The notes beneath the pieces were generated by a model, which was not told where the DNA came from, did no database searches, and worked only from the letters and a program-made list of their open reading frames with translations. Below, in pieces: positions 7,704 to 19,679 of a stretch of 64,000 bases of DNA (positions are counted from its first letter, which is position 1; each line of letters starts with the position of its first letter). Position numbers and translations under genes: made by a program. The stretch spans positions 2,284,001 to 2,348,000 of the forward strand of contig NC_018016.1 in the NCBI RefSeq assembly GCF_000265465.1, read 5' to 3'. Source of the DNA: Ornithobacterium rhinotracheale DSM 15997. GTDB taxonomy: Bacteria; Bacteroidota; Bacteroidia; Flavobacteriales; Weeksellaceae.

Positions 7704-8120
7704 ATGATATATCTAAATAAAGACAACCTAAAAAGCCATGTTTTTGAGCGCATCATTGACGAAAGCTCCAAAGACTTTGAAAAAGCCCTTGACCAGTGCG
7801 AGGCAGAAAATATAGCCATTATTAAAACCTTACTTGGCAGTTACTATGATGTGGAGGCTATTTTTGACGAAACCAATCCGATTAAAAATGCTTATTTAGA
7901 GCGTATTTTAACCTTTCTTGTGCTTTGGGATATTCAGCATCGCAATGCGTATAGAAAACTTAGCAATGTAAGCAAAGAACAAAAAGAGTGGGCAGACAAA
8001 GAGCTAGACAAATTAGCCTCTGGTAGATTATCTCTAGATAACTTGCCCCCTAAATCTAGCACCACAGATCGTTCAAAAATATTATATGGTAATCTTTCTA
8101 ATCCAGACTTTTATATATGA
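7704..8120 (+). CDS. Head-tail connector-like protein (Mu gp36 / DUF1320-like)
   Basis: 138 residues beginning MIYLNKDNLKSHVFERIID. The pattern of a compact helical domain with AYLERILTFLVLWDIQHR and its place between terminase and portal fit the DUF1320/gp36 family of Mu-like phages, thought to be a head completion or connector protein. Its stop overlaps the portal start by 4 bases (ATGA), indicating coupled translation. Confidence 0.7.
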   Translation: MIYLNKDNLKSHVFERIIDESSKDFEKALDQCEAENIAIIKTLLGSYYDVEAIFDETNPIKNAYLERILTFLVLWDIQHRNAYRKLSNVSKEQKEWADKELDKLASGRLSLDNLPPKSSTTDRSKILYGNLSNPDFYI

Positions 8121-9403
8121 AAAATAAAATACTAAATAGCATTCAAAATTTCTTTTTAAGAAAAGCCAGCTATACCGATTTAAACAAATTCAGAGCATTG
8201 GCCAGCAATCAAAGCAATATCCCCTCTGAAATTATAAAACATCAAGCTAAGCTTTTACGAGTAGAAAATCTACAATCGTGGAAAATGGCGGTAATGCTTG
8301 CTACGGACCCCGAAAATCCAAACAAACAAAATTTACAAGCACTCTATGAAAATATGCTGCAAGATAATCATTTGGCTTCGGTAGTAGAAACTCGTATTGC
8401 TAAAACGCAGCAGATGCCATTTGCATTGTTCAATACCAACAATGAGCGTGTGGACGAGGCTAAAACTCTTTTAGAGAGCGTTTGGTTTCAAGAATTCATC
8501 AAACTTGCCATTATGTCAAAATTTCAAGGAACCACACTCATTGAGTTGTTTGAGCTTGATAACAACGGAGAGCTTAAAGAAATAAACGAAATTCCGCAGG
8601 CAAACTTTAATCCGATGAAAGGCATCATCTTAGCAGAGGCAGGAGATGAAAAAGGCTTAGCTTATCGTGAGGGTAAGCTGGCAAATTACTACATACAAGT
8701 GGGGAAAGATTACAACGATTTAGGCATGTTTGCCCAAACGGCTCCCATCATCATAGCTAAAAAATTAGGCTTAGGCTCGTGGCTTGATTTTATTGATAAA
8801 TACGGCGTGCCGCCTTTATTCATAACCACAGAGCGCGAGGACGACAACCGTATGCTTGAACTTTTTGAAATGGCTACAAATTTTAAAAGAAATGGCTTTA
8901 TGATTGCGCGTGGGGCTGAAAAATTTGACATTCCAAACCTTTCTAATTCAAATAGTGGCGAAACTTTCGATACTTTGATTAAAAGGGCAGATAACGAAAT
9001 TTCTAAACGATTTTTGGACGGTACAGGCTTAACAGATGAAAAAGGTTTTGTCGGTAGTGTAGAGGTGCAATATGAATTGGCTAATGCTCGTTTTGTATCG
9101 GATAGAATTTTAGTTAAAAATGTGATTAACAAACAGCTTATCCCTTTATTAGTTAAACTTTCGCCCGTGTACAAACCTTTAGAAAACTTGTATTTCGATT
9201 GGGACGAGGAGGAAACCCTAACCGCCGATAAAGTCTGCGAAATGGTCGCAAAACTTGGCTATCAATTTGAATTCAACCCAGAACAAATTGAGGAGATAAC
9301 AGGGCTTAAAATTTTAGGCATCAAAAACAATTCTTTTCCAGCCTTTGAGGAGGGAGAGCCTAAAAAAAAAATGACAAAAACGCCCAGTGGCAACTCAAAT
9401 TAA
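8117..9403 (+). CDS. Portal protein (DUF935, Mu gp29-like)
   Basis: 428 residues. The segments LGLGSWLDFIDKYGVPPLF and LDGTGLTDEKGFVGSVEV are characteristic of DUF935, the Mu gp29-type portal family that forms the ring at the head vertex. The C-terminal end is basic (PKKKMTKTPS). Its last 40 bases overlap, in the -1 frame, the open reading of the MuF-like gene, joined by a run of ten A at 9362-9371 (see findings). Confidence 0.85.
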   Translation: MKNKILNSIQNFFLRKASYTDLNKFRALASNQSNIPSEIIKHQAKLLRVENLQSWKMAVMLATDPENPNKQNLQALYENMLQDNHLASVVETRIAKTQQMPFALFNTNNERVDEAKTLLESVWFQEFIKLAIMSKFQGTTLIELFELDNNGELKEINEIPQANFNPMKGIILAEAGDEKGLAYREGKLANYYIQVGKDYNDLGMFAQTAPIIIAKKLGLGSWLDFIDKYGVPPLFITTEREDDNRMLELFEMATNFKRNGFMIARGAEKFDIPNLSNSNSGETFDTLIKRADNEISKRFLDGTGLTDEKGFVGSVEVQYELANARFVSDRILVKNVINKQLIPLLVKLSPVYKPLENLYFDWDEEETLTADKVCEMVAKLGYQFEFNPEQIEEITGLKILGIKNNSFPAFEEGEPKKKMTKTPSGNSN

Positions 9404-9489: not shown

Positions 9490-10710
9490 TTGGATTTATC
9501 CGATTGGCTAAAAGTGATGGCTAAAATAGCACAGGACAGGTACGAGGGGAAACTCAAAGCCGGAGAGCTGGACAATGCCTACATTTTAAACACTTACGAA
9601 GAATTGAAAGGCGGTTTTACAGAGGGATTTGACAGCTCTAATTTCAAGGTGCACGGAGCCACCAACGGCATTAGTCCGGAAACGCTGAAAATGCGCCAAA
9701 ATCTGTTTAAGTTTTCCGGTGCGAAAACTTATACCCTACTGGAAGAAATTAACCAAATATTAAACTCCAATAAAGGCGAAACCTTTGACAGTTTTAAAAA
9801 CGAGGTATTGAAACTCAACCCACGATACAACAAAAACTACCTACAGGCAGAGTGGCAAACCGCTAAGCAAGCAGGCTACCATGCGGCCAATTGGGACGAG
9901 TATCAAAATAACAAAGATTTGTATCCAAATTTGAAGTACAAAACGCAAGGTGATAATAGGGTAAGAGAACCGCACCGCTTGTTAAATGGTATTATTGCTC
10001 CTTTGGACAGCGACTTTTGGAAAACACACTATCCGCCTAATGGCTGGCGTTGTCGTTGTTATGTGGTGCAAACCGCCGAAAAGCCTACAGATGAAAAGGA
10101 TATACCTACGCTAAACGAAAAGGAAATGCCCAAAGAATTTAGGGGCAATGTAGGTATAAGTGGCGAAATATTTAAGGAAACCGCCGAAAACAAGGGCAAA
10201 CCGCACCCATATTTTGCACTCTTTAAAAACGCTGGCAGCGAAACCAAAAAAGCCTTTGAATACAGCAAACTTGCAGCTGCCAAAGAATTGGCATACACCG
10301 CCGAAAATGGCGCACAGGTAAAGGTAAGCCCTTTTGCAGACCCTGCCGATTTTGAGGATAATTTTAAAACCGCTTCAATTATTGCAGATAAGTTAGGTGT
10401 TAGCGTTAATATTCGAGCTCATTTGGATTCTAATATTTTAGAAGGACACAAAAACCCTGAACTTGAAATAAAGGGAATGATTGGCGATAGAAAAGCTATT
10501 AAAACTTCTCAAGTTAAAAACCTTAGAAACACTTATCGTTCTGCGAAAGAACAAGGATGCGAGTGCATTGTTTTTGATTTAGATTCGTGTCCTTTGACAA
10601 TCGAAGAAGTACGAAATGAGGCAGTCAAAAAATTTAAAACTTTTCCGATGATAAAAGAAATCTTTATCCATAAAAACGGAGAGGTTATAAATATAAAAAG
10701 CAACCCATAA
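9490..10710 (+). CDS. MuF-like minor head protein with C-terminal toxin-like nuclease domain
   Basis: At least 406 residues. The first 190 or so match the SPP1 gp7/MuF head morphogenesis family: YLQAEWQTAKQAGYHAANW and the hallmark HYPPNGWRCRCYVVQ. From about residue 265 a separate domain follows, containing LEGHKNPELEI, IGDRKAIKTSQVKN and CECIVFDLD, a pattern I associate with CdiA-C-terminal/BECR-type RNases carried on polymorphic toxins and phage MuF proteins. The true start is unclear: the frame is open back to 9364 (with a convincing CDCDTC stretch at about 9442-9459) but has no ATG before 9490, where the TTG is only nominal. A non-ATG start or a -1 slip from the portal gene is possible. 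Confidence 0.82.
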   Translation: MDLSDWLKVMAKIAQDRYEGKLKAGELDNAYILNTYEELKGGFTEGFDSSNFKVHGATNGISPETLKMRQNLFKFSGAKTYTLLEEINQILNSNKGETFDSFKNEVLKLNPRYNKNYLQAEWQTAKQAGYHAANWDEYQNNKDLYPNLKYKTQGDNRVREPHRLLNGIIAPLDSDFWKTHYPPNGWRCRCYVVQTAEKPTDEKDIPTLNEKEMPKEFRGNVGISGEIFKETAENKGKPHPYFALFKNAGSETKKAFEYSKLAAAKELAYTAENGAQVKVSPFADPADFEDNFKTASIIADKLGVSVNIRAHLDSNILEGHKNPELEIKGMIGDRKAIKTSQVKNLRNTYRSAKEQGCECIVFDLDSCPLTIEEVRNEAVKKFKTFPMIKEIFIHKNGEVINIKSNP

Positions 10711-14200: not shown

Positions 14201-14877
14201 TTCTCGTATTTTTCGTTTACAGGGAACAAGCCGTCAATGTCGGTTCCCTCTGGAAAGTCCACCGCAGATATAGAAAGTGGAATACTTACTTTTTTGCCTT
14301 GTGCGTCAGTACAACTTGCCTCCACAAAAAAGGCAGAACGCTGTGGCTTGTAGGATTGGCGAATGATATTCACGGCGTCTATAAACTCCTCGTTATTGAT
14401 TTCCTCAGCTAATTTAGTGAGCTCAATCACTCGGCTGGCTTTCAGATTGCCTTTGCTATCTTGCTTTAAAAGCCTTTGGATTACTTTCACCAAATTGGCG
14501 GAGTTATCATCTTTGGCCAAGCTCTGCAAAAAATCTCTTACTTTCTCAATACCAGCGGTTACACTGTCGTCCCAGTTGTCTATCACGCGGAACCCGTAAA
14601 TAATGGTATTGCCATTTTCATCGGTAAAGGTGTGGCTTTGCTGGGTGTCCCTCACGCCAAACACTTCGTTTTTAGTTTCCAAGAGAATTTTTAAGCTCTC
14701 AAAGGCAAACAATTTGACTTGGCTAATATTTTGGCTTAAAGTCTTCAATGTTTCCGCTATTCGCGGTACATTGTCGTTTACCAATGCCTTATAGGCTTTT
14801 CTGTCTTCTTCTTGTTGTCTTTTGCGGCGTTTAATTTCAGCCGCTAGTTGTTCATCGGTTAAATTTTCTAAGCTCAT
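14197..14877 (-). CDS. DUF3164 family phage protein
   Basis: 226 residues. The pattern FGVRDTQQSHTFTDENGN, then VIDNWDDSVTAGIEKVRDFL and IIRQSYKPQRSAFFVEAS, is that of DUF3164, a family nearly always found in the early region of Mu-like phages. Its molecular role is unknown. ATGA overlaps join it to the genes on both sides (14874-14877 and 14197-14200). Confidence 0.82.
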   Translation of the reverse strand: MSLENLTDEQLAAEIKRRKRQQEEDRKAYKALVNDNVPRIAETLKTLSQNISQVKLFAFESLKILLETKNEVFGVRDTQQSHTFTDENGNTIIYGFRVIDNWDDSVTAGIEKVRDFLQSLAKDDNSANLVKVIQRLLKQDSKGNLKASRVIELTKLAEEINNEEFIDAVNIIRQSYKPQRSAFFVEASCTDAQGKKVSIPLSISAVDFPEGTDIDGLFPVNEKYEK

Positions 14878-15110
14878 AAATTATATTCTTTTTTAATGTT
14901 AGACACTGTTTTCGCGGCTTTTTCTTTGTCATAGCTGTCATTAAAAACTTCATTCATCATTTCTTCATTTGGCACTTCTATCTTTATTTCAGCAGTTGCC
15001 TCTGATAGGATGAATGTAATTCTAATAAAATACTTCCCGTCTTCTGTTGTTTTAGTTATCAGTATTTGTCCGTGTTCTTCGGTCTCGTGAATAATTGCAA
15101 ATTTTTCCAT
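14874..15110 (-). CDS. 78-residue phage early protein, unknown
   Basis: Begins MEKFAIIHETEEHGQILITK; beta-rich first half (YFIRITFILSEATAEIKIEV) followed by an acidic helical tail. The stop overlaps the DUF3164 start (ATGA). No family recognised. Confidence 0.6.
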   Translation of the reverse strand: MEKFAIIHETEEHGQILITKTTEDGKYFIRITFILSEATAEIKIEVPNEEMMNEVFNDSYDKEKAAKTVSNIKKEYNL

Positions 15111-15115
15111 TGTGT

Positions 15116-15319
15116 TTATTTTTTCAAATTATCTTCTTTTTTTCCATAAATCCCTTTATTTATCCACATTTCAGCAGTTTGCAAATTGGTGATAGCAATT
15201 GCTCTGCATCGTGGTTCTACTTCTTCTGCATTTAAAATGCTTTCTAATTCTTCAATTTTTTCGGCGAATAGTTTTTTCAATTCGCCTTTACTTAATTTTT
15301 TAATTGGGTTTGCGTCCAT
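15116..15319 (-). CDS. Acb2/Tad1-hairpin-like protein, possible cyclic-nucleotide sponge
   Basis: 67 residues, helical hairpin. The second half reads EPRCRAIAITNLQTAEMWIN: an Arg after a loop, then A-I-T-x-L-x-x-A-x-M-W. This is the pattern I know from the Acb2 family of phage proteins, small helical oligomers that bind cyclic oligonucleotides and gcADPR and so block CBASS and Thoeris signalling. Short length, early operon position and many uncharacterised small neighbours fit an anti-defence role. The match is from memory of the motif, so the function is a hypothesis; a plain helical early protein is the alternative. Confidence 0.55.
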   Translation of the reverse strand: MDANPIKKLSKGELKKLFAEKIEELESILNAEEVEPRCRAIAITNLQTAEMWINKGIYGKKEDNLKK

Positions 15320-15324
15320 TGTGT

Positions 15325-15519
15325 TTATTTTTTAATCGTTAATGTTATACCTGTTCCGCTGCGTTTCAAGGTTCCAAACTTGCTGTAGGTGAAGTGAAAT
15401 TCCGCTAAATCTTCCAGTTTCAATTCCTCTGCGTGAATTTTAAAAGTGTCTTTCTCCTCTTTGACTGACGCTTTGAGGAAAAACTCTTGAACCATCTTTT
15501 TTGTTATTGTTTCGTTCAT
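15325..15519 (-). CDS. 64-residue phage early protein, unknown
   Basis: Begins MNETITKKMVQEFFLKASVK; charged, mixed helix and strand, ending in beta-like TGITLTIKK. Five bases separate it from the Acb2-like gene downstream. No family recognised; an anti-defence partner is possible from position only. Confidence 0.55.
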   Translation of the reverse strand: MNETITKKMVQEFFLKASVKEEKDTFKIHAEELKLEDLAEFHFTYSKFGTLKRSGTGITLTIKK

Positions 15520-15534
15520 GATTTTTATTCTTTT

Positions 15535-15957
15535 TTAGATATATATTAAAAATTCTGATAGTGGAGGAGGATAGAGACCCCATTTATCTATTTTCCCTTC
15601 TCCGTCTACTCTCATTATTACATAGTCCCCAAAACCTGTATCTCCTGGACACATTATTTTTGGTACATAGCCACTAATTTTAGTTATTACTTCCTTATTT
15701 TCATCTAAAAGGGTATAAGTTCCGTTATCGCATACTTTGTAATGAATTTTTGCTGTCTTGCCCTTTTCCCAATTGACAATAATTCCTTTGTCTATATCAA
15801 TTAATGGCTTCCAAAAAGCTCCTTCCCTGCATGGAATCAAATCTCCATTAGTGTCTTCAATCCCATCTACAGTGGCATCTTCCCAATATCTCGCGCCACA
15901 TTCAGCTAAGAGATATTTTACATTTACTTTTTTTACTACTTCAAGTATTCTTATCAT
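15535..15957 (-). CDS. Conserved phage early protein, 140 residues, unknown
   Basis: Contains YLLAECGARYWEDATVDGIE, then PCREGAFWKPLIDIDKG and MCPGDTGFGDYVIM. The dense Trp/Tyr/Gly/Cys motifs look like a conserved globular beta-domain, and I have the impression that similar proteins occur in many Bacteroidota prophages and plasmids. Four Cys could bind a metal. Function unknown. Confidence 0.7.
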   Translation of the reverse strand: MIRILEVVKKVNVKYLLAECGARYWEDATVDGIEDTNGDLIPCREGAFWKPLIDIDKGIIVNWEKGKTAKIHYKVCDNGTYTLLDENKEVITKISGYVPKIMCPGDTGFGDYVIMRVDGEGKIDKWGLYPPPLSEFLIYI

Positions 15958-16304: not shown

Positions 16305-16587
16305 ACAGTAAGTTTAAAAATTCACAATAAAGCCCTTTAAACTCCTTGGCATAGCGCTCCTCACTCTCAAAACCATCATCTGTTTTGCGGGCAAAGAAAT
16401 ATCCATATTCCCCCTCTCTTAGTACAGAAAACTCGGGCACATTCCACCCAAGTTTGCGTAGTGCCTCGAGATGAAATTTGTACTTTTCAATGGTCTGCTC
16501 GTTTTTTTGATGAAGCAAGCATCTGTCTACATGCGGCAAAAATTTATACAAACTATCTAGCCGCAATAAATTGAGAATATCTTTCAT
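16288..16587 (-). CDS. 99-residue phage early protein, unknown
   Basis: Begins MKDILNLLRLDSLYKFLPHV; helical first half, then an aromatic stretch GEYGYFFARKTDDG and a helical C-terminus. Its start overlaps the MuB-like stop by 4 bases (ATGA), so it is probably expressed with the transposition genes. No family recognised. Confidence 0.6.
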   Translation of the reverse strand: MKDILNLLRLDSLYKFLPHVDRCLLHQKNEQTIEKYKFHLEALRKLGWNVPEFSVLREGEYGYFFARKTDDGFESEERYAKEFKGLYCEFLNLLYELKR

Positions 16588-17504
16588 ATATATAAAGTGT
16601 TTAATAGTTCAACATTTACCGCTTGGTTGCTTTTTTCAGCTTCAGCAAAAGCATCTTTGATAATGATTTCTAAATCGCCAAAGTTTTGCACTCTTTTTTT
16701 TAGCCAATTAGCCACTGTTTGGCTAAGCTCCAATGTAGAGCAGATTTTATCTATATCTTCTGTTATATCTGTGATTAAATTTTCTCTTCTACCAAATCGA
16801 CGGGCAGTTTGTCTAAAATTTTGCTTGTTGCGCTCGTAGCCTTTTTTTAAAATTTCATTGATGCCCATTCCCACCAGCAGGAAGCCTACTTTTCCATCTA
16901 AGCCATCGGCCAAAGTCTTTATAATGTTAATGTAACCTGTCTTTTTGCCTATATGCTCGGCCTCATCTATGATTAAAATGGGGTTGTCGCACATCAATAG
17001 TTTTTTGACTACTTTTTTGATGATGGTTCCGGCAGTTCCAAAGGTTTCTACGCCTACCACTTCGCCAATATTCACGGCAAATTCTTTGGCATTTTCCACC
17101 GCCGAACAGGTTACGATAAAGGTGTTGTTGGGGTAGCGCGTAATGTATTGGCGCAGGGCGTGGGTTTTCCCGCTTCCGGTGTCGCCATCAATGGTGGCAC
17201 GCTCTCCGCTCTCGCGCACTTCTTTTATTTTGTTAATGATTTGCTGAAAGTTAGCGGTATCAAAATGCTGCCAATAGCTCACTCGAATATCTAAGCCTAT
17301 CGCTTTGGCAAGGCCTAAATAATACACATCTTTAATGGCTGTTTTGCCTATGTGCGTTTTACGCTGTAATATTTGATTTACATAGGTTAACCCCACACCG
17401 CTAATTTTTGCCACATCAGGCTGTTTGGCGCCGGTGTTTTCCATATAGCGCTCTACGGCTACTGGAATTTGCTCTGTTTTTTGAAAAATGCTTAATTTTG
17501 TCAT
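16584..17504 (-). CDS. Transposition target-choice ATPase, MuB-like (AAA+)
   Basis: 306 residues. An N-terminal helix-turn-helix (about 25-60, with QPDVAKISGVGLTYVNQIL) precedes an AAA+ core: Walker A GDTGSGKT (107-114), Walker B ILIIDEAEH (about 177-184). MuB-type proteins coat target DNA, choose the insertion site and activate the transposase. The gene follows the transposase gene by 24 bases in the same operon, the same A-B order as Mu. Confidence 0.88.
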   Translation of the reverse strand: MTKLSIFQKTEQIPVAVERYMENTGAKQPDVAKISGVGLTYVNQILQRKTHIGKTAIKDVYYLGLAKAIGLDIRVSYWQHFDTANFQQIINKIKEVRESGERATIDGDTGSGKTHALRQYITRYPNNTFIVTCSAVENAKEFAVNIGEVVGVETFGTAGTIIKKVVKKLLMCDNPILIIDEAEHIGKKTGYINIIKTLADGLDGKVGFLLVGMGINEILKKGYERNKQNFRQTARRFGRRENLITDITEDIDKICSTLELSQTVANWLKKRVQNFGDLEIIIKDAFAEAEKSNQAVNVELLNTLYI

Positions 17505-17528: not shown

Positions 17529-19679
17529 TTACCATTTGAAGTCCCGCTTTATTCTTTCTCTTTTTAGTTTTATCTTTTCTTTTTCGCTTAGGCTTTCACT
17601 TTCCTGCAATACCATTGCGGTGTTATAGCTCTTTTTATTTCCTCCCAGTTTCATTGCGTGGGAGTAAGGTAATTCGCTATAAATAGAGCCTATCTCATCT
17701 CTTAATGCATCTGCCTTTTCCTCGTGGGCAAGTTTTCGCTCATAATGTTTGCTCAGTGCTATATTCGTATCCATATCGGCCTCCGCGTGCGATTGTACGG
17801 CTAATTCGGCAGCAGGACAGCTCATAATGTATACATCGTCTAGCGTGTATAAGTCGGCCATTTCCTCGTCCCATACTATTTTTACATTCACGCGCTTGGC
17901 GTAACCTGTGGCCTTGGCCAAAATTTCCACCCCTGTGTTTACATAGTCTGGAATTTCAAATAAATAGGTTTGGCGGTTGTAGCCTGTTACCTTTTCCACT
18001 TTCACAAAGCCGCGCATATAGCTAATATCTGCCTGCGTATGATTGCCAAATAAGCGGCGCAATATGCGCTTATCCATATACTGGCATTCTATATGTTTTC
18101 TCTCACGAAATATCTTAGCTGGGATTAATTCTTTATTCCCTCGTCTTGGGCTATTATTCCACATTTTTACACACTCTTCAAATTGCAAAATAGCCTCCTC
18201 GTAGGTTGGTAATTCCTCTATTTCTAAATAATCAGGATTAGCCATGCCCTCAATACCTACTTTCCAGCTACTGCTCACCAAGTTTGGCAGTGCTTTGAGT
18301 GATTGTTTCACTAATCTGAAAGACATCTCCGCTGGGTTAGCCTGCGAGTTTCCTTTTTCTATCGTGCGCACCTTATGAAATACGAGGTTAAGGAGCGCCT
18401 TGCTCTCTTGGCTCGTGTAAGCGCCGTGGTTATCGCTCAGGAATTCAAACATCGTAAGCCCCTCGCTGTTTCTTACAGCCATTTTTAGGGCTTTTTCCAG
18501 CATTTCGTAAGTTTCCTCGTGGCCTTTTTTGCTCGCCACCGACCAACCTACTATACACTGGCTTGCCACATCGGTAATCATCATCACATAGAGCTTATAC
18601 ACTCTTTTCCCTACACGGTAAGCAAGTAGTCCAGAACCATCTGCGGTAAACAGCGAGTGGGCGTATTCTAGTTTTTTGGTAGGTACATAGGTTAAAACAT
18701 TCTTTTTATACCAGTCCTTGCCGTGTCTTTCTTTGCCCAAGAATTGATTATCCCAACGCGCTACATATTTATTATAAGTCCTGCGAGAGAGTGGCGCATA
18801 GCCCAGCTCTGTTATCATTGGGATATAGTAGTTATCATACAGCGCTGCCACGGATTGCTTACTCGTACCAAAAGGGTTCATATACGCCCCATACATCACG
18901 GCTTCGTGCGCATCAAAAGGCAAAATTTCGCCTGTGTTTTCATCTACCAGCTCGCATTTACCCACCACGCGGGCGTTATCATTGCCATATTTGGCAGAAA
19001 TCAAGTAATTTCTTTGCTCCGCAAGGCTTAATGGAAACTCGCTTATTTTGTTGCGTAAGCTATGGGCATTGCCTATGCTTAGCCCCTCTAAATTACGAGG
19101 TGCCAAAATCTCAGCACATAACTGCAAAAACTCTTGCTTTTGGCGTATGCCTAAATGCTTAAAATCCCCCAATTCATAATTGAGTTTAATGTAATTTAAC
19201 CAAGCCATTGCCTCTGCCAATTCCATTGCTTTGGTAGCGTTAAAGCCTACCGGCGCATGAAATTGGAAATATCGCATATTTTCCGCCGATATTTGCCCAC
19301 GCACCGCGCGCATAATTTCCTCTTTGGCATACTGCTTTAAATCTCTTTTCTCATCGGCTTGAAACTCCTTTAAAAGCTCTTTTAAAGCCTCCTTGGTGCC
19401 AAATTGCGAACGGTAGTGCTTAGGCACTCTATCCGGCAAAAAGTCGTAATCATAGTAAAACTGATGATTTATTCGAGCCCAGCGCCAAGCCTTTCCTGTT
19501 GCCGGAAAGGTGTCTCGGTTATGGTAACAAGCCGGAACGCTTTTTTTATATTTACTTCTTACAAATTTTAAGTAGTCATTTGACAGAGCACAAGTTTGAA
19601 CAACAAGGCGTTCAGAGACCCACAGCGTGTCGCCCTCTGTATTTTTTCTTATCAATATGTCGCCTTGTTGTAGTTGCAT
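17529..19679 (-). CDS. Transposase, MuA-like (DDE, rve core)
   Basis: 716 residues. N-terminal winged-helix/HTH region binds phage ends; the RNase H-like core carries the likely catalytic triad Asp347 (TADGSG), Asp416 (LSDNHGA) and Glu451 (NSQANPAEMSF), the last two 35 apart. The C-terminal part (LFGNHTQADISYMRG, then the beta-barrel) corresponds to the Mu-type C-terminal domain. It performs insertion and replicative transposition with the MuB-like protein. The start at 19679 faces a + strand promoter, so the two transcription units diverge here. Confidence 0.92.
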   Translation of the reverse strand: MQLQQGDILIRKNTEGDTLWVSERLVVQTCALSNDYLKFVRSKYKKSVPACYHNRDTFPATGKAWRWARINHQFYYDYDFLPDRVPKHYRSQFGTKEALKELLKEFQADEKRDLKQYAKEEIMRAVRGQISAENMRYFQFHAPVGFNATKAMELAEAMAWLNYIKLNYELGDFKHLGIRQKQEFLQLCAEILAPRNLEGLSIGNAHSLRNKISEFPLSLAEQRNYLISAKYGNDNARVVGKCELVDENTGEILPFDAHEAVMYGAYMNPFGTSKQSVAALYDNYYIPMITELGYAPLSRRTYNKYVARWDNQFLGKERHGKDWYKKNVLTYVPTKKLEYAHSLFTADGSGLLAYRVGKRVYKLYVMMITDVASQCIVGWSVASKKGHEETYEMLEKALKMAVRNSEGLTMFEFLSDNHGAYTSQESKALLNLVFHKVRTIEKGNSQANPAEMSFRLVKQSLKALPNLVSSSWKVGIEGMANPDYLEIEELPTYEEAILQFEECVKMWNNSPRRGNKELIPAKIFRERKHIECQYMDKRILRRLFGNHTQADISYMRGFVKVEKVTGYNRQTYLFEIPDYVNTGVEILAKATGYAKRVNVKIVWDEEMADLYTLDDVYIMSCPAAELAVQSHAEADMDTNIALSKHYERKLAHEEKADALRDEIGSIYSELPYSHAMKLGGNKKSYNTAMVLQESESLSEKEKIKLKRERIKRDFKW

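Follow-up and report, generated by a model that had tools for sequence, protein, structure and literature searches.

Does a 67-residue product encoded in a prophage of Ornithobacterium rhinotracheale DSM 15997 belong to the Acb2/Tad1 family of sponge proteins, and if so, which signal could it capture? In the whole stretch of DNA analysed here (64,000 nucleotides, called the window), an earlier note had proposed, from a motif match, an Acb2/Tad1-like hairpin with possible anti-CBASS and anti-Thoeris activity.

The gene and its prophage context

The 67-residue product at 15116-15319 is real and is encoded on the minus strand, which the earlier note had not stated. The open reading frame starts with ATG and stops with TAA; the product is MDANPIKKLSKGELKKLFAEKIEELESILNAEEVEPRCRAIAITNLQTAEMWINKGIYGKKEDNLKK, in which CRAIAITNLQTAEMWIN occupies residues 38-54. 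Above the ATG the frame stays open for 4 codons only, and the stop of the upstream 64-aa gene lies five bases ahead of this ATG, so that there is no hidden longer N-terminus. The plus-strand frame over 15116-15319 is interrupted by stops. A scan for promoters and terminators gave results at about chance level. The features used below are the following:

15116..15319, minus strand: Acb2/Tad1-hairpin gene, 67 aa (P0001); PF24729, phrog_717, AlphaFold2 hairpin
15315..15333, minus strand: 19-bp direct repeat AAAAAATAAACACAATGGA, upstream copy, at the end of the 64-aa gene and the start of the Acb2-like gene
15106..15124, minus strand: 19-bp direct repeat AAAAAATAAACACAATGGA, downstream copy, at the stop of the Acb2-like gene and the start of the 78-aa gene
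15325..15519, minus strand: 64-aa gene, immediate upstream neighbour; has relatives in L130 and L131, where the Acb2-like gene is lacking
14874..15110, minus strand: 78-aa gene, immediate downstream neighbour; has relatives in L130, L131, L132 and L135
14197..14877, minus strand: DUF3164 gene (PF11363, phrog_846), anchor for the slot comparison
15535..15957, minus strand: 140-aa gene, probably accessory; no Pfam match at E<=1, no PHROG match at E<=0.001
16584..17504, minus strand: MuB-like ATPase (AAA_22, 53 bits)
17529..19679, minus strand: transposase-like gene of the same same-strand early block (rve core 31.9 bits, just below the cut-off of 32.6)
8117..9403, plus strand: Mu-type portal gene of the same prophage (Portal_Mu, E 1.8e-53)

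The minus-strand block at 12.6-21.6 kb carries the transposase-like gene, the MuB-like ATPase and DUF3164, and Portal_Mu, Phage_Mu_F and Phage_tail_S are found on the plus strand. We read the element as a Mu-like prophage with the Acb2-like gene in its transposition/early block, on the strand opposite to the head genes. This places an Acb2/Tad1-hairpin protein among the early genes of a Mu-like prophage, in the family of Chryseobacterium. The Mu F-like head protein of this element (9490-10710, plus strand; Phage_Mu_F, E 4.1e-16) has a CdiA_C domain at its C-terminus (PF18451, E 1.3e-16), a fusion that we take to resemble the MuF polymorphic toxins of temperate phages.

The neighbours had been likened to an anti-defence cluster. 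They are indeed real small same-strand ORFs, but the two nearest (64 aa and 78 aa) are small genes conserved across this prophage group, with no recognisable anti-defence function. None of the three neighbours (14874-15110, 15325-15519 and 15535-15957) had a Pfam match over cut-off or an NCBIfam or PADLOC match at E<=1.

To compare the slot, we took 12 regions from the DUF3164 relatives (present in 29 of 146 family genomes), 11 of them with a DUF3164 gene (L133 lacks it), and considered only ORFs on the DUF3164 strand. For the 140-aa gene, no relative is listed in the 11 compared regions. In the second Mu-like prophage of the same genome (L130) and in a prophage of another genome of the genus (L131, in G050), the relatives of the 64-aa and 78-aa genes adjoin with nothing between them. 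In the other prophage type of G050 (L132), an 86-aa gene stands ahead of the 78-aa gene. PADLOC found nothing in two slot proteins of L130, and gave one weak match to a restriction-enzyme model (E 0.0054) for the L132 slot protein. PF24729 genes are located directly behind DUF3164 in G034 (L135) and G076 (L136), that is at 2 of 11 other loci; the other 9 have no PF24729 gene on the DUF3164 strand in the region examined. Two arrangements were seen in passing: in L130 (1694-2377), two relatives of the 64-aa gene flank a 78-aa-like gene, which may reflect a duplication within the operon at the slot, and contig C1 of G050 carries four DUF3164 genes in two equal-score pairs, the pattern expected if it held two copies of each of two Mu-like prophages.

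DNA alignment with the empty sites showed a clean one-gene insertion: the two repeat copies are 209 bp apart in the window, and a single copy is present at the empty sites. We then searched four genomes for the 18-bp core of the repeat with at most 1 mismatch, the reversed control pattern giving 0 matches. In the genome under study the core is confined to the two window copies and the second prophage's empty site. G050 has four occurrences, two of them exact and two differing by one mismatch; the L131 and L132 junctions account for two of the four. G029 has one, with one mismatch. The Acb2-like gene is thus an accessory insertion with a flanking repeat, a clean one-gene swap-in whose site is empty in sister prophages, which is new. 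It was either gained here or lost elsewhere as a unit, and recombination at the duplicated junction is the probable route. That the repeat spans stop and start codons, and recurs identically or with one mismatch in sister prophages, suggests single-gene swapping at shared operon junctions.

Family membership, relatives and predicted fold

PF24729 (Acb2/Tad1 hairpin) matched the 67-aa protein with E 7.6e-9 and 36.1 bits, over the curated cut-off of 27, and was the sole Pfam-A family at E<=1. The match spans residues 20-57 and profile positions 18-56 of 58, and the protein is the only PF24729 match of its genome (G000). For comparison, the same profile gives 71.4 bits for T4 Vs.4, 66.1 for PaP2 Acb2, 37.5 for L017, a canonical phage member identical to a protein of Enterobacter phage EcP1, and 25.5 for L016, from Chryseobacterium sp. 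R2A-55. The best PHROG was phrog_717 (E 3.3e-5), the group of phage T4 Vs.4 homologues (PMC10097602). NCBIfam gave nothing convincing (best E 0.039).

The match was further evaluated against shuffled sequences. A profile of 69 family sequences, including T4 Vs.4 and PaP2 Acb2 and excluding both the window protein and L016, scored the 67-aa protein at 36.3 bits, compared to 12.8 for the best of 20,000 shuffles (19,917 with a reported score). With a profile made from T4 Vs.4 and PaP2 Acb2 alone, the values were 16.8 and 12.8 (20,000 made, 19,877 reported). A search of solved structures with the single sequence returned nothing relevant. When the search used a profile built from A4, an alignment with 50 of the 66 distinct relative proteins, T4 Vs.4 came first (E 3.9e-4), followed by two PaP2 Acb2 sequences (0.11 and 0.12); unrelated chains start at 0.28, and of the three Acb2 matches only that to T4 Vs.4 is significant alone.

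The motif match is therefore well above chance, and the family named from it is borne out by PF24729, by PHROG 717 and by the profile search of solved structures, in which Acb2 proteins took the first three places. The 67-aa protein is a genuine but divergent member of an established sponge family, and it scores as a hairpin protein roughly as well as a canonical phage member does.

Direct search with the 67-aa protein found few relatives. Only weak matches were obtained in 8 phage records (best E 0.03) and 0 in plasmids; in 59 relatives' genomes the protein found only itself, and among viral contigs it matched its own prophage (L001) and L002, then L017. With L017 as query, a relative is encoded by 398 of 404 candidate stretches of viral contigs, and 80 of these were retained. 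L017 also matches 153 phage records; 146 are Flavobacterium phages, 64 of those with F. columnare as host. Among the 40 matches listed, L017 relatives are labelled hypothetical protein, and one has no annotation. Rows were dropped for L002 (27-residue frame with a stop inside the match) and L019 (a likely member with an unclear start), and, as duplicates, for L020 (same contig as L017) and L008 (same protein as L016). PF24729 is present in 3 of 395 genomes of the host order, our own included, and in 6 of 148 genomes of the host family at E<=0.001, 5 of them over cut-off. The canonical form is thus common, and close relatives of the 67-aa protein are nearly absent.

The closest relative found is L016, 44% identical. 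It is arm-less as is the window protein, with 11 residues before the Lys that is constant in the family, but it differs in keeping Ala at the position of Ile53, in scoring below the Pfam cut-off and in lying in a tail module, directly behind a baseplate-hub gene (phrog_4930; L016:4950-6647). Canonical members (L017, EcP1 type) read FGxKAVGLxFNPS ... SVAITEAQTAQMWAVKAITW. They share with the window protein the hairpin core, the NP motif and the R..A.T..QTA.MW..K pattern. In contrast to it they carry an N-terminal arm (median of 29 residues before the constant Lys for the 50 in A4, against 14 here) and an F at position 3, and they differ from it at positions 53, 54, 56, 58 and 59.

The proposed helix-loop-helix is supported by the AlphaFold2 model of the monomer, computed with A4. 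It is all-helical, with helices 11-31 and 36-58, a mean pLDDT of 86.1, 45 of 67 residues at pLDDT >= 90 and poorly defined ends; its N-terminus has just a 4-residue helix (5-8), inside a stretch of mean pLDDT 66. The canonical L017 was modelled at pLDDT 94.4 with a short helix (10-14) and two long helices. This model fits the protomer architecture described for Acb2, one short N-terminal helix and two long antiparallel helices (PMC10419184).

In Foldseek, the 67-aa model gave 0 matches at E<=0.001 in PDB or BFVD; the top BFVD row was an Acb2/Tad1 hairpin protein, yet with E 1.3. L017, a clear PF24729 member run as control, likewise had 0 PDB matches at E<=0.001. VIA-align 2 placed Acb2 and Tad1 chains at Z 4.4-5.7, against 7.1 for the best unrelated row; the Tad1 chains among the 41 compared (Z 4.6-5.7) did no better than unrelated hairpins, and the L017 control was equally weak. 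As a family test the structure search was set aside as uninformative, since the canonical control failed too and the Acb2 rows stood amid unrelated helical hairpins.

Pocket and interface residues

The hairpin of PF24729 is common to the window protein, T4 Acb2/Vs.4 (PDB 7UQ2) and PaP2 Acb2/p26 (PDB 8H2J), which are longer (88 and 93 aa, respectively, against 67 here). T4 Vs.4 binds cGAMP with a Kd of ~30 nM; the ligand stacks on Y8 and F82, the contacts reported are Y8, H11, K23 and R79, and the hexamer residues are L29, A66, A73 and A77 (PMC10097602). In the same report, Y8A cuts cGAMP binding more than 5-fold, and A77I, which introduces a clash, T12I and S74N disrupt CapV inhibition. Y8A does not trigger Panoptes (PMC12657218, PMC12657230), and T68M is said, in a figure legend, to lower the binding affinity of T4 Acb2 (PMC12657230).

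The C-terminal helix aligns with T4 Vs.4 without gaps, so that statements on positions 42-58 do not depend on the N-terminal alignment. A42 corresponds to T4 A66, T44 to T68, A49 to A73, K55 to R79 and Y58 to F82; A66, A73, the Met-Trp pair and a basic residue at R79 are therefore kept. Of the small interface residues A66, A73 and A77, two are retained (A42 and A49) and the third is replaced by Ile53; Glu50 stands at T4 S74. Ala is found at the position of Ile53 in 65 and Ser in 3 of the 68 rows of the shuffle-test alignment, whose rows are more diverse than A4. In A4, whose 50 proteins are mostly close to L017 so that the counts are not independent, 49 have Ala and 1 has Ser where the window protein has Ile53, and 50/50 have Ala where it has Gly56. 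In the same census R37 is kept in 49/50, A42 in 48/50, A49 in 49/50, and T44, M51, W52, K15 and K55 in 50/50; F occurs in 49/50 where the window protein has A3. The near-constant family positions altered in the 67-aa protein are A3, I53, N54, G56 and G59.

The N-terminal part was examined for an aromatic residue in the role of T4 Y8. T4 and PaP2 carry Y8 and Y11 ahead of the first helix; in contrast, residues 1-17 of the window protein hold none, the first aromatic being F18. Pfam matches of T4 and PaP2 start one residue before Y8 and Y11, and that of L017 starts one residue after F19, at profile position 3; from these start points F19 of L017 fits the Y8 column by extrapolation. The shuffle-test alignment disagrees, with Y8 opposite gaps and T4 F33 in the column of the Phe of the relatives' FNPS. 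In it, PaP2 K26 falls opposite the Lys of GEKAVG; helix 1 is paired differently in A4 and in the A4-profile search. Whichever N-terminal alignment is used, no aromatic is supplied at the Y8 equivalent. For the cGAMP contacts K23, R79 and F82, K55 and Y58 align with the latter two, and an equivalence of K15 with K23 is supported by neither the shuffle-test alignment nor the A4-profile search.

A second set of residues may belong to another pocket. R37 aligns with PaP2 R67 and T44 with PaP2 T74, so that both the Arg and the Thr (T4 T68) are conserved here. We take R67 and T74 to line the trinucleotide pocket of PaP2 Acb2, and Cao et al. reportedly described R67 as a trinucleotide-pocket residue (Mol Cell, 2024). 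By ungapped pairing, T4 Vs.4 carries D61, not Arg, at the R67 position. With the stacking aromatic naturally absent and the R67 and T74 equivalents kept, this protein offers a ready-made test of whether the two Acb2 pockets are separable in nature.

A candidate cyclic-trinucleotide sponge and its alternatives

According to a review, Acb2 takes up three molecules of cGAMP in inter-protomer pockets, and its central channel accommodates two trinucleotides at its ends (PMC12043709). We class the 67-aa protein with the PF24729 hairpins, and its mode of action is probably that of an Acb2. We do not class it as a cyclic-dinucleotide Acb2, because the stacking aromatic and one small interface residue are absent. 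An anti-CBASS sponge, as advanced in the earlier note, is plausible, with the Vs.4 features for cGAMP binding and hexamer formation partly missing.

Sponge action is proposed on the basis of family and position, members of known function being proteins that soak up cyclic nucleotides. The gene would be an accessory single-gene counter-defence cassette of the Mu-like prophage early block, presumably expressed early during lytic growth. Its stripped-down hairpin would most likely assemble into an oligomer, which would sequester a cyclic oligonucleotide alarm signal and thus leave the matching effector switched off. The ligand would more likely be a cyclic trinucleotide of the cA3 type than cGAMP, since the protein lacks the N-terminal arm and its aromatic but retains R37 and T44, which align with PaP2 R67 and T74. 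We favour this explanation, an early-expressed sponge biased to cyclic trinucleotides, and give it as a whole an even chance of being right. Ile53 and Glu50 count against it, standing at T4 A77 and S74, where A77I and S74N disrupt Vs.4; so would the lack of an aromatic in residues 1-17, the tail-module position of the closest relative L016, the Foldseek result, and the absence of the searched signalling enzymes from four genomes of the host genus. The Ile53/Gly56 pair may indicate a repacked interface or a different oligomer.

An ordinary broad Acb2, binding cyclic dinucleotides like T4 Vs.4 with a pocket rebuilt from K15, K55 and Y58 and a hexamer repacked around Ile53/Gly56, would account for K55 and Y58 being aligned with the cGAMP contacts R79 and F82. 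Gly56, which replaces an Ala invariant in A4, lies one helical turn from Ile53 and might compensate for it. The effect of Y8A in T4, both on cGAMP binding and on Panoptes, together with the aromatic-free N-terminus, nevertheless makes such a protein unlikely. Hairpins are a generic fold, and the position of L016 right behind a baseplate-hub gene could indicate an oligomerisation or assembly module with no nucleotide binding. Accessory genes dropped into tail modules are common, however, and the window gene is located in the transposition/early block on the strand opposite to the head genes, with its Arg and Thr kept, and we consider an assembly role decidedly unlikely. The altered near-constant positions, the missing arm and the lack of the searched enzymes in host-genus genomes would also be expected of a decaying member that no longer works. 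Yet its frame is intact, with start and stop fitted into a tight operon junction, and L016 is equally short, so that the short form is not a one-off truncation; decay is accordingly judged very unlikely.

The anti-Thoeris activity raised before is not supported. Tad1 is in the same hairpin family, and its chains appeared in the VIA-align 2 comparison, but it has an extra N-terminal beta-sheet and binds gcADPR; the review that describes this assigns gcADPR capture to Tad1 and Tad2, and describes Acb2 with cyclic di- and trinucleotides (PMC12043709). The window protein, at 67 aa, is all helical in the model and its frame is closed 4 codons upstream, leaving no such sheet, and neither ThsB_TIR nor TIR_2 was found in the 4 genus genomes. 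A Tad1 identity was rejected for want of the sheet, and a Tad1-type sponge for gcADPR is hardly credible.

Returning to the trinucleotide-biased sponge, its sharpest form would be a natural arm-less, dinucleotide-blind protein that has discarded the cyclic-dinucleotide pocket, repacked its oligomer (Ile53/Gly56) and kept the trinucleotide pocket, an idea that we regard as improbable. If true, it would defeat cA3 signalling without soaking up the Panoptes-type dinucleotide decoys that detect Acb2. Tuned Acb2 specificity has been proposed as a phage way out of this Panoptes dilemma (PMC12657218). A local Panoptes reason for dinucleotide-blindness is disfavoured here, mCpol being found in 0 of 146 family genomes.

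The possible target was also searched for in the host. SMODS, ThsB_TIR, Cas10 palm and TIR_2 were each found in 0/4 genomes of the host genus; the genome set holds one genome per species, so that strain-level systems could still exist. The absence of these nucleotide-signalling enzymes makes the target a testable question. In the host family, SMODS is present in 23 of 146 genomes. Among the six genomes with a PF24729 match, G034 and G076 are SMODS-positive, too few to claim an association. G076 carries three PF24729 genes, located at separate places (L005, L009 and L010).
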